Source: Streptomyces rapamycinicus NRRL 5491 (GTDB lineage: Bacteria > Actinomycetota > Actinomycetes > Streptomycetales > Streptomycetaceae). Taken from it: DNA of 64,000 bases. The notes under the pieces were generated by a model. The model worked only from the letters and a program-made list of their open reading frames with translations. It was not told the origin of the DNA and ran no database searches. The stretch spans positions 6,324,001-6,388,000 of the forward strand of contig NZ_CP085193.1 in assembly GCF_024298965.1 (NCBI RefSeq). Direction: 5' to 3'. The position numbers were made by a program, and so were the translations under genes. Below are positions 1 through 2,441 of the stretch, one piece after another; the stretch's first letter is position 1; each line of letters begins with the position of its first letter.

Positions 1-603
1 GATGATCTGCGCCGCATCCGGGAGTGCGTGGGCCCGTTCGACTGGGCCGCTCCGCAGGACTGGATGTGCGAGCCGATCATGGTCCAGGGCGGCACGGTCG
101 GCGGACAGCGCTTCGTCGGCACCCACCTGAGCATCGCGGAGCATCAGCGCCGCACCGTGGCCAACTACCTGGAGCTCCGGGAACTGGCGCCGGACCTGCC
201 GATCGTGCCCGTGCTCCAGGGCTGGGATCTCCCAGACTACGAACGGTGCGTGGCCCTGTATGAGCGGGCCGGGGTCGACCTGACCCGGGAACCCACCGTC
301 GGACTTGGCTCCGTCTGCCGACGGCAAGCCACCCGCGAAGCCGTCGCCATCGTCACCACCCTCGCCGGACACGGGCTGAAGCTGCATGGCTTCGGCTTCA
401 AGACCATCGGCCTACAGCGAGTCGGCCACCTGATGGCCTCCGCCGACTCCGCCGCATGGAGCTACCACGCCCGCAAGCGCCCGCCCATGCCCGGCCACAC
501 CCACAAGAACTGCGCCAACTGCCTGCCCTACGCGCTGGCCTGGCGCCTGCGCGTGCTCGCCGCGCTTCCCGGCTGGCAACAGCCCCTGCTCAACGCGGCC
601 TAA
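1..603 (+). CDS. DpdA/TGT-like DNA-modification family protein, 5' end missing
   Basis: The frame is open from base 1 and ends with TAA at 601-603, so the N-terminus lies outside the window. The visible 200 residues resemble the tRNA-guanine transglycosylase superfamily, specifically the DpdA-like branch that inserts 7-deazaguanine derivatives into DNA. Supporting features are the stretch VPVLQGWDLPDYERC followed by LYERAGVDL, the GLGSVCRR segment, the GFGFKTIG segment near residue 130 and a CANC pair near the end that could bind zinc. It sits 23 bp upstream of ssb in the same direction, inside the integrative element, so a role in modifying the element's own DNA is a reasonable inference. 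The family call is from memory of its motifs. The substrate and the partner enzymes that make the base are not visible here. Confidence 0.7.
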   Translation, partial: DDLRRIRECVGPFDWAAPQDWMCEPIMVQGGTVGGQRFVGTHLSIAEHQRRTVANYLELRELAPDLPIVPVLQGWDLPDYERCVALYERAGVDLTREPTVGLGSVCRRQATREAVAIVTTLAGHGLKLHGFGFKTIGLQRVGHLMASADSAAWSYHARKRPPMPGHTHKNCANCLPYALAWRLRVLAALPGWQQPLLNAA

Positions 604-1163: not shown

Positions 1164-2441
1164 ATGACCCGCCACCCCACCGAGCCGCCGGAGGGCGGCA
1201 ACATCAGCCTGTGCACCGGATCCGGTGCGCTGGACCTGGCCGTGGAAGCCGTCACCGGCCTGCCCACGGTCATCGTCGGCGAAAAGGACCCGGCCGCCTC
1301 CCGGCTGCTGGCCACCCGCCTGCCCCACGCCCGGAACCTGGGTGACATCACGGCCGTCGACTGGCCGACGCTTTCCGCGGCGCTGCCGCGCCCGGCGGCA
1401 CTGACCGCCGGCTTTCCCTGCCAGGACATCTCCAACGCCGGACCTCGGGGAGGGATCGCCGGTGACCGCTCAGGACTGTGGAAAACCATCGCCCACGCCA
1501 TTCGCCATCTTCGACCCCGAATCGTCTTCCTGGAAAACGTCGCAGCCCTCCGAAGCCGCGGACTCGACGTCGTCGCAGCCGACCTGGCCGCGTGCGGGTA
1601 CGACGCACGGTGGATGTGCCTACGCGCTGGAGATCCCGAAATCGGAGCCTGCCACCGCCGAGACCGCTGGTTCGCCATCGCCTATCCCGCTGCTGAAGAC
1701 CCCCACATCCCAGCTGGGACGCAACGGCGGACCCCAGCACCCGGACAAACGCAAAGCGGGCGGACACGGGCCCACGCTGGAGGACGAAGTGGTCTTCTTG
1801 CTGCCCCCGACGGACGCATGAGCCTGCTGCCCACCCCCGCCGCCGCCGACGGAACCGGCGGCCCCGGAACCTCCCCCAAACGGCAGGGCGGCATGAACCT
1901 GCGCACCGCCGTCACCCTCCTGCCCACCCCCGCCGCACGCGACTGGAAGTCCGGCGCCTCCAACCTGATGGAGGCCAACTCCCGCCCGCTGAACGAAGTG
2001 GTGGTCAATCTGCTGCCCACCCCCAAGGCGTCGGACGGGCCGCACGGCGGGCCGAACCAGCGCGACAGGGCCGGAAACTACTACCTCCCCGGCCAAGCCG
2101 TCCGTCTGGACAGGCGGTGGATGGCCACCAACGGCACCGACTACGGGCCCGCCATCCGCCGCTGGGAAACAGTCCTGGGGCGCTCTGCCCCCGAGCCGAC
2201 CGAACCGGGCACCAAGGGCAACCGCCGCCTGTCCCCGGCGTTCGTCGAATGGATGATGGGCGCCGATCCCGGCTGGGTGACCAGCCCGGATCTGGGGCTG
2301 TCCCGCTCCGATCAGCTCAAGATCCTCGGCAACGGCGTCGTCATCCATCAGGCCGCCCACGCCTACCGGGCACTGCTCGGCGCCCTCGTCCCCGAAGCCG
2401 CTGCCCCCGCCACGTCCCAGCTCGCCCTGGACATCGCCTAG
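1164..2441 (+). CDS. DNA (cytosine-5-)methyltransferase
   Basis: A 425-residue C5 methyltransferase that transfers a methyl group from SAM to cytosine in DNA. Motif I is SLCTGSGALDLA (about residue 15), motif IV with the catalytic Cys is GFPCQDIS (about 88), motif VI is FLENVAAL (about 120), motif VIII is RRDRWFAIA (about 168) and motif X is ILGNGVVIHQ near the C-terminus. Between VIII and X the chain carries three LLPTP units at about residues 220, 251 and 283, 31-32 residues apart, where a target-recognition domain would be expected. No restriction enzyme gene is visible beside it, so it is probably an orphan methylase that protects the element. It lies between two copies of the same leader. 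Its middle part overlaps a second plausible reading frame (see 1462-1821). Confidence 0.88.
   Translation: MTRHPTEPPEGGNISLCTGSGALDLAVEAVTGLPTVIVGEKDPAASRLLATRLPHARNLGDITAVDWPTLSAALPRPAALTAGFPCQDISNAGPRGGIAGDRSGLWKTIAHAIRHLRPRIVFLENVAALRSRGLDVVAADLAACGYDARWMCLRAGDPEIGACHRRDRWFAIAYPAAEDPHIPAGTQRRTPAPGQTQSGRTRAHAGGRSGLLAAPDGRMSLLPTPAAADGTGGPGTSPKRQGGMNLRTAVTLLPTPAARDWKSGASNLMEANSRPLNEVVVNLLPTPKASDGPHGGPNQRDRAGNYYLPGQAVRLDRRWMATNGTDYGPAIRRWETVLGRSAPEPTEPGTKGNRRLSPAFVEWMMGADPGWVTSPDLGLSRSDQLKILGNGVVIHQAAHAYRALLGALVPEAAAPATSQLALDIA
1462..1821 (+). CDS. Alternative +1-frame ORF overlapping the methyltransferase
   Basis: A 119-codon frame starting at GTG 1462 and read +1 relative to the methyltransferase. 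Its translation contains SSSWKTSQ, then TWPRAGTTHGGCAY, then an LLKTPT unit with GGPQHPDKRKAGGH. From memory this order resembles a group of actinophage and element proteins of unknown function that also carry LLPTP repeats; I cannot check this here. By hand count, third-position GC between about 1670 and 1817 is near 80% in this frame and near 50% in the methyltransferase frame. The ORF stops in an ATGA junction at 1818-1821, where an ATG in the methyltransferase frame begins. It may be a real overlapping gene, a relic of frame slippage, or chance. Confidence 0.35.
   Translation: MTAQDCGKPSPTPFAIFDPESSSWKTSQPSEAADSTSSQPTWPRAGTTHGGCAYALEIPKSEPATAETAGSPSPIPLLKTPTSQLGRNGGPQHPDKRKAGGHGPTLEDEVVFLLPPTDA

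Follow-up and report, generated by a model that had tools for sequence, protein, structure and literature searches.

We analysed a 64,000-nucleotide window of the Streptomyces rapamycinicus NRRL 5491 genome in which a gene for a C5-cytosine methyltransferase (frame 0) contains a second open reading frame, shifted by +1. The question that this locus raises is whether one stretch of DNA encodes two proteins. The initial annotation, which drew attention to the +1 frame, offered three answers: the region codes in two frames, the protein families are frame-shifted relatives of each other, or the arrangement is a relic of slippage that stayed open.

The methyltransferase gene and its surroundings

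The features of the locus, in window coordinates, are as follows.

1164-2441, forward strand: frame-0 C5-cytosine methyltransferase chain A-B2, 425 aa (PF00145, phrog_116, phrog_1008)
1449-1453, forward strand: Shine-Dalgarno-like GGAGG, 8 nt before GTG 1462, kept in 8/8 full copies
1462-1821, forward strand: B1, +1-frame ORF of 119 aa with a GTG start (WPxxG domain and putative recognition module 1)
1498-1674, forward strand: WPxxG domain in the +1 frame, overprinting frame-0 motifs VI-VIII (extent from a window-seeded profile)
1690-1806, forward strand: putative recognition module 1 (LLKTPTS..HPDKRKAGGHGPTLEDE..) in the +1 frame, with +1 constraint; the same peptide is in frame 0 in the viral relative L185
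1818-1821, forward strand: ATGA, the +1 stop over frame-0 linker codons that precede the next module
1824-2116, forward strand: three frame-0 LLPTP modules, starting at 1824, 1917 and 2010 (end approximate)
2244-2400, forward strand: motifs IX and X in frame 0 (frame-0 dN/dS 0.27 in 2211-2400)

The frame-0 chain contains the C5-cytosine methyltransferase motifs I, IV (PCQ), VI (ENV), VIII, IX and X in order, and its residues 14-194 match PF00145 (E 2.7e-27). Motifs IV, VI, IX and X were placed by pattern, at about 1410, 1524, 2244 and 2325, respectively. The chain runs from motifs I-VIII through an out-of-frame linker and the three LLPTP modules to motifs IX and X. Its residues 216-414 match phrog_1008 (PHROGs), as does B1 (E 1.7e-7), so that one phage protein family appears to be spread over two frames. 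In the phage records examined this family, named 'DNA methyltransferase', is one chain; in the window its parts are divided between the +1 frame (positions 61-151) and frame 0 (positions 130-327), which together cover 61-327 of its 329 positions. By this match, B1 would be the N-terminal WPxxG domain and one LLPTP module of the phage family.

As first described, the +1 ORF at 1462-1821 is open, lies inside the frame-0 ORF and has actinophage relatives; the hand-counted third-position G+C was also borne out, at 0.81 in the +1 frame against 0.53 in frame 0 over 1670-1817. In all full-length copies (8/8) the +1 frame stays open over 138 codons, measured from stop to stop. An assembly or sequencing error was considered and rejected, as 6 genome assemblies yield 8 full copies with the same layout, which phages have too.

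The genes around the methyltransferase encode DpdA, SSB, Prim-Pol, DUF3631, HTH_17 and integrase proteins, and a tRNA-Ser adjoins; the locus is apparently an integrated element. An 81-nt direct repeat (1079-1159 and 2447-2527, 96% identical) flanks the methyltransferase gene and carries a hairpin-like GGGGCGACCGC..GCGGTCGCCCC and an end that resembles a ribosome-binding site; between these repeats the gene looks as if it were a movable cassette. A DpdA-family gene (PF23859) occupies window positions 1-600, where it is cut by the window start, suggesting that the element may combine 7-deazapurine DNA modification with cytosine methylation. The genome also holds a second copy of the methyltransferase (L008, 7126235-7127506), 89% identical, in which the second frame-0 module differs from that of the window while its flanks are conserved. 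About 58 kb beyond the window lies another locus, of the phage-like type (L010-L012, 6446043-6447300), with separate, overlapping A and B chains.

Constraint in the two frames

From 199 genomes searched, we aligned by codon the window and 7 full orthologous copies (8 copies, 6 genomes); the counts of variable sites leave out one partial copy (L039) and one fragment (L041). Variable sites at frame-0 codon positions 1, 2 and 3 were as follows.

A-only part: 21/88, 17/87, 46/87
1465-1690: 12/75, 6/76, 25/75
1691-1817: 18/42, 4/42, 5/43
1822-2210: 36/126, 40/127, 82/127
2211-2400: 9/60, 10/60, 31/60

The pattern in 1691-1817 is that of the +1 frame. Selection on this segment is purifying in the +1 frame and not in frame 0: its dN/dS across the 8 copies is 0.12 in the +1 frame and 2.84 in frame 0, and frame-0 dN/dS outside it is 0.22-0.35. 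Two overlapping coding regions are therefore strongly supported for the module at 1691-1817.

For the WPxxG part (1465-1690) the signal in the window's own clade is mixed. Frame-0 third positions there vary at 25/75 sites compared with 159/274 outside the overlap (p=0.0002), and synonymous divergence is lower (pS 0.177 vs 0.235, 0.313 and 0.241). The +1 dN/dS of this part is 1.21, no drop relative to an upstream non-overlap control (1.24), and a wider set of the window's group gave the same picture (1.21 in the overlap vs 1.20 in the control). Of 10 groups of close relatives the 7 largest were compared: +1 dN/dS was lower in the overlap than in the upstream control in 6/7 (0.71-0.94 vs 1.21-2.20); frame-0 pS was likewise lower in 6/7 groups and higher in one (0.505 vs 0.459). 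Two-frame coding of 1465-1690 thus appears well supported across the family and more weakly in the window clade. The proposal that the region codes in two frames stands accordingly, strongly for 1691-1817 and less strongly within the clade for 1465-1690. The initial annotation had named as grounds for doubt a lack of homologues of the +1 product and normal third-position variability in frame 0. Neither was found: 62 phage records match the +1 product at E<=0.01, and over the whole overlap frame-0 third positions are variable at only 30/118 sites compared with the 159/274 outside it (p=3e-9).

These data also bear on the proposed relic. A frameshift could have fused the C-terminal part of an ancestral +1 recognition protein to the methyltransferase, leaving B1 unused; the layout matches what such a fusion would leave, and the WPxxG part, whose +1 dN/dS in the window clade is not below the control, is consistent with it. 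However, the +1 module is conserved as a protein while its frame-0 reading drifts, and the layout recurs in L020-L023 with a different +1 module, and it is also seen in independent assemblies and in phages of Propionibacterium, Mycobacterium and Gordonia. We therefore regard an unused relic as quite improbable, and the notion of slippage that merely stayed open did not hold up.

A short segment, 1767-1809, is nearly invariant among the 8 orthologous copies in either frame, and neither coding frame alone accounts for this: its +1 third positions are variable at 2/15 sites, compared with 14/23 just upstream (p=0.006). An RNA signal may lie here, or a frame-0 linker under constraint.

Codon choice across the family

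To score the WPxxG domain in the wider family, we shuffled the frame-0 codons among synonymous positions and compared the +1 reading with a profile of 50 sequences, all viral or phage, with the window not in the training set. The window's +1 reading scores 69.8 bits, compared with 29.9 +/- 8.2 in its shuffles, and 0/300 shuffles reach the real score (z 4.9). The same was true of all 27 loci chosen by hand from 141 (0/300 shuffles each, z 3.5-7.7), 10 of which are also in the training set. Among 67 distinct viral methyltransferase genes, drawn from 157 loci picked by frame-0 similarity only, codon choice encodes the +1 WPxxG domain better than all 100 shuffles in 63. The suggestion that the protein families are frame-shifted relatives is borne out in this sense: the WPxxG domain of phrog_1008 is read in the +1 frame over motifs VI-VIII in these 63 of 67 relatives. 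When only genes less than 70% identical to every training row are counted, 50/54 beat all their shuffles, and at less than 60% 32/36 do so, with the same four exceptions.

Control regions upstream of the overlap in 15 chosen loci gave z values of -0.9 to 2.2 in the +1 frame and -2.1 to 2.0 in the +2 frame. The +2 frame of the overlap itself also beats its shuffles (z 3.3-5.8), below the +1 frame in 14/15 loci and tied with it in one; we read this as two coding frames fixing bases, which makes the shuffle test less frame-specific.

Could the +1 resemblance be a shadow of DNA that is conserved for the frame-0 protein? Such a shadow is real and large: shuffled genes still average 15-35 bits among the 27 loci (the median of the means is 22 bits among the 67), and L185, at 24 bits, scores at the level of its shuffles. 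As an account of the locus we nonetheless consider it highly improbable, as 63/67 genes lie above all their shuffles and other loci read the window's +1 module in frame 0; for 1691-1817 it is refuted, since frame 0 is not constrained there (dN/dS values above). The same background affects simpler counts. A 15-bit cut-off finds the +1 domain in 154/157 viral loci, but this cut-off sits at shuffle level and the per-gene shuffle result is the one to be used; similarly, all 180/180 loci have a +1 B-domain match, but most were fetched by +1 queries or as close frame-0 relatives. Four Mycobacterium and Gordonia phage enzymes, presumed controls chosen by frame-0 similarity, turned out to carry the +1 domain at 55-79 bits (profile scores without individual shuffles), and their records annotate no such +1 product.

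Putative recognition modules in either frame and single-frame relatives

The window's +1 module is found in frame 0 of L185, where 34/39 residues are identical and the nucleotide differences fall 5, 3 and 17 times at module codon positions 1, 2 and 3. It also occurs in the main frame of a single-frame protein, P0172 (32/39 residues). Conversely, L020 has as its +1 module the one that the window reads in frame 0 at 1824, at 80% nucleotide identity. Among module clusters with at least 3 loci, formed by single linkage and in some cases loose, 19/41 occur in both frames. Because the LLPTP modules are located between motifs VIII and IX and are swapped like cassettes, we infer that each may read a DNA target.

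The four exceptions to the shuffle test are L210, L263, L185 and L308. Two of them, L210 and L263, are enzymes read in a single frame, in which W-P-R/A-A-G follows motif VIII and precedes the modules. The family of L263 is large, with 2080 homologues at E<=1e-3 among 7998 proteins scored. In 86/119 of the homologues listed, W[PTSA]..G follows within 150 residues of motif VIII (119 proteins were compared by motif and profile, 1 of 120 having been dropped). The profile of this family matches the B domain with a probability of 95.5 and an E of 1.6e-8 over 37 columns in a single profile-profile comparison; the B profile scores only 12 and 1 bits against the L263 and L210 sequences themselves. Traces of frame-0 motif VI-VIII coding were looked for in the DNA of these in-frame WPxxG domains and did not emerge (96/300 shuffles reach the real score in L210 and 86/300 in L263).

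The best segment of L185 is 50% identical to the window enzyme. All its modules are in frame 0, its +1 reading scores no more than its shuffles, and no WPxxG signal is seen by eye in frame 0, so a fused enzyme may manage without B1. L308 has no WPxxG domain and has stops in the +1 frame. AlphaFold2 models L210 with a confident core and motifs IX-X, most of residues 172-311 being below 50; HhaI and DNMT1 structures lead the matches for this model, which is of a related enzyme and not of the window protein. For the +1 protein of L085, AlphaFold2 gives a domain of four short strands with a pLDDT of 53-76 by block of ten, and modules at about 40-54. Neither the domain nor the modules thus obtained a confidently predicted fold.

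Layouts in phages and other genomes

In the Streptomyces phages Lilbooboo, phiBT1 and Samy and the Arthrobacter phage Colucci, the frame-0 chain A stops after motif VIII, and B is read in the +1 frame from inside A: a WPxxG domain (SSWRTS..TWPRSG-like), LLPTP-like modules and then motifs IX and X. As A of this type is without IX and X, it should need B to form the enzyme. The layout of the window is also that of Propionibacterium phage PFR1. The record of Microcystis phage Mwe-JY08 cuts the gene start; in this phage IX is in the +1 ORF, which ends inside A, and X is in A. The +1 chain of phiBT1 (L003, 1842-2771) is unannotated and its methylase is noted as 'may be inactive'; in Lilbooboo, Colucci and Samy (L001, L002 and L004) the +1 chain is annotated from a late start, which leaves out the overlapping WPxxG domain.

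Layouts were assigned by regular expressions in 116 distinct loci, a set mostly fetched with B queries or as close A relatives. Motifs IX and X lie in B, with modules only in B, in 19/116; the window-type layout, with IX and X in A and modules in both frames, accounts for 17/116; IX and X in A with modules only in B for 13/116; and IX in B with X in A for 6/116 (L006, L138, L141, L144, L148 and L130). The remaining 61/116 are incompletely recognised or mixed. The 40 genome loci, each with a B-domain match, come from groups such as Proteobacteria, Bacillota, Flavobacteriaceae, Gemmatimonadetes, actinomycetes and one Thermoplasmatota bin, and the G+C of the fetched loci is 0.40-0.76. A plasmid search with one +1 protein gave 2 records. 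Compared with Pfam, NCBIfam and PDB sequences, the +1 proteins gave only a PF00145 tail match below the cut-off (10.7 bits, E 0.35).

Two loci are arranged unusually. In L136 (2000-2974) the frame-0 N-terminal part joins the +1 protein in frame, skipping the rest of motifs VI-VIII, which continues in another ORF. In Gordonia phage Keitabear (L184, 1486-3309) the motif blocks of the frame-0 methyltransferase ORF stand about 500 bases apart, and a LAGLIDADG endonuclease is annotated in another frame across that gap.

Start and stop of B1

Across the family, 100 of 164 distinct loci have an ATG or GTG preceded by a 4-nt SD-like word 3-23 codons before the WPxxG domain, compared with an expectation of 29.8 +/- 4.2 loci (maximum 43) in 100 synonymous shuffles; the count requires an open +1 frame and leaves out 3 of 167 loci. 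Separate initiation of B1 therefore appears statistically supported. In the window clade, GTG 1462 and its GGAGG are suggestive only as the start of B1, because the same bases spell the conserved frame-0 codons G-G-I-A-G-D.

At the other end, the initial annotation had the two frames meeting in ATGA at 1818-1821. The ATGA is present in the window, but its ATG is not conserved: counting the window, 9 orthologous copies were compared, and the stop lies in ATGA in 4 of them, in CTGA in 4 and in TTGA in 1. In phage ShiLan, moreover, the +1 ORF extends beyond the start of the frame-0 module, and on these two grounds re-initiation at ATGA as a general mechanism was rejected.

B1 might instead be the first part of a longer, phage-like B chain, which would pass by a -1 shift or by re-initiation at NTGA into the frame-0 modules and motifs IX-X and would pair with A. 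In the Lilbooboo and Samy type, B indeed runs without a break from the domain through the modules to IX and X; in 9/9 copies the +1 stop directly precedes the next LLPTP module at NTGA, and 1767-1809 is almost invariant down to its +1 third positions. Against this, no standard X XXY YYZ heptamer is seen by eye, the restart codon would be ATG in only 4/9 copies and CTG in 4, and the junction is not tight, as ShiLan illustrates. The frame-0 codons for [V/L/M][S/T/R]LLPTP, furthermore, themselves spell TGA out of frame. We consider a continued chain of this kind unlikely, and favour B1 as a protein that ends at its own stop.

Discussion

Taken together, we estimate a probability of roughly 0.7 that two proteins are made here from the same stretch of DNA, forming a two-chain C5-methyltransferase, akin to M.EcoHK31I, whose modular recognition units are split between frames. 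The initial annotation had not recognised the +1 product as a part of a split enzyme. Frame 0 would give the C5-cytosine methyltransferase chain with its own recognition modules, and a second initiation at GTG 1462 would give B1, whose 119 residues combine the WPxxG domain with one more recognition module. The most likely role of B1 would be to dock on the catalytic chain via the WPxxG domain and to contribute a recognition module, whether additional or alternative; in the phage relatives, the recognition half that is encoded separately seems to work in this way. B1 is probably translated in the host; that it acts with the frame-0 chain in one enzyme is suggested by the phages in which IX-X are only in B and by the single-frame family. 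L185 favours B1 adding specificity rather than being required for all activity.

The multispecific phage C5-methyltransferases of the SPbeta/phi3T type are single-chain enzymes with several short recognition units, each thought to read its own target. The window enzyme resembles them in layout, with several short putative recognition units in one variable region. M.EcoHK31I and M.EaeI are both C5-methyltransferases of two polypeptides, and the small gene of M.EcoHK31I lies within the large one in another frame. According to the relevant passages of PMC3404938, the larger subunit of M.EcoHK31I contains motifs I-VIII, X and a predicted target-recognition domain, and the smaller only motif IX, whereas M.AquI is split in its variable region, with I-VIII in one chain and IX-X in the other. 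A C5-methyltransferase split over two polypeptides is thus already known from these two enzymes.

Likened to M.EcoHK31I by motif layout, the locus would share with it a catalytic and a smaller chain that together hold one enzyme's motifs; its second polypeptide, constrained as protein at 1691-1817, is a putative one. It differs in that IX and X are both in frame 0; the IX/X split reported in those passages is seen, by pattern, in six relatives, and Mwe-JY08 has it, with IX in its +1 ORF and X in A. The placing of the recognition domain may also differ: it is predicted in the larger subunit of M.EcoHK31I, whereas the window has three putative recognition modules in the large chain and one in the +1 chain. 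The chain split of M.AquI resembles the Lilbooboo and Samy layout, and nothing in the passages cited indicates an out-of-frame overlap or LLPTP modules in M.AquI. Among the papers listed in the searched literature, with most subscription journals outside its scope, we found no description of the nested arrangement in phages or actinomycetes. As far as searched, three things are new: motifs VI-VIII are overprinted in a fixed register across a family, modules are spread over two frames, and the window has a mixed layout.

A broader scenario, which we put forward tentatively and at somewhat less than even odds, is that the WPxxG domain arose by overprinting motifs VI-VIII and has since been locked in register, being lost or moving to an in-frame position in rare cases, while modules were shuffled between frames to give a combinatorial two-chain enzyme. 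If true, the WPxxG overprint would span phages, mobile elements and several bacterial phyla, and a second chain would be hidden behind an annotated single methyltransferase gene, perhaps in hundreds of genomes. To our knowledge, bacteria seldom show long out-of-frame overlaps in which there is evidence for each of the two frames. The recurrence of a fixed register over very divergent genes would allow overprinting to be studied with natural replicates, alongside lineages that have apparently broken free of it (L210, L263 and L185). Annotation would change as well, as for phiBT1, where the second half of the methylase sits in the +1 frame. If the modules set specificity, the methylation motifs of such phages and elements would not be predictable from the annotated gene alone.
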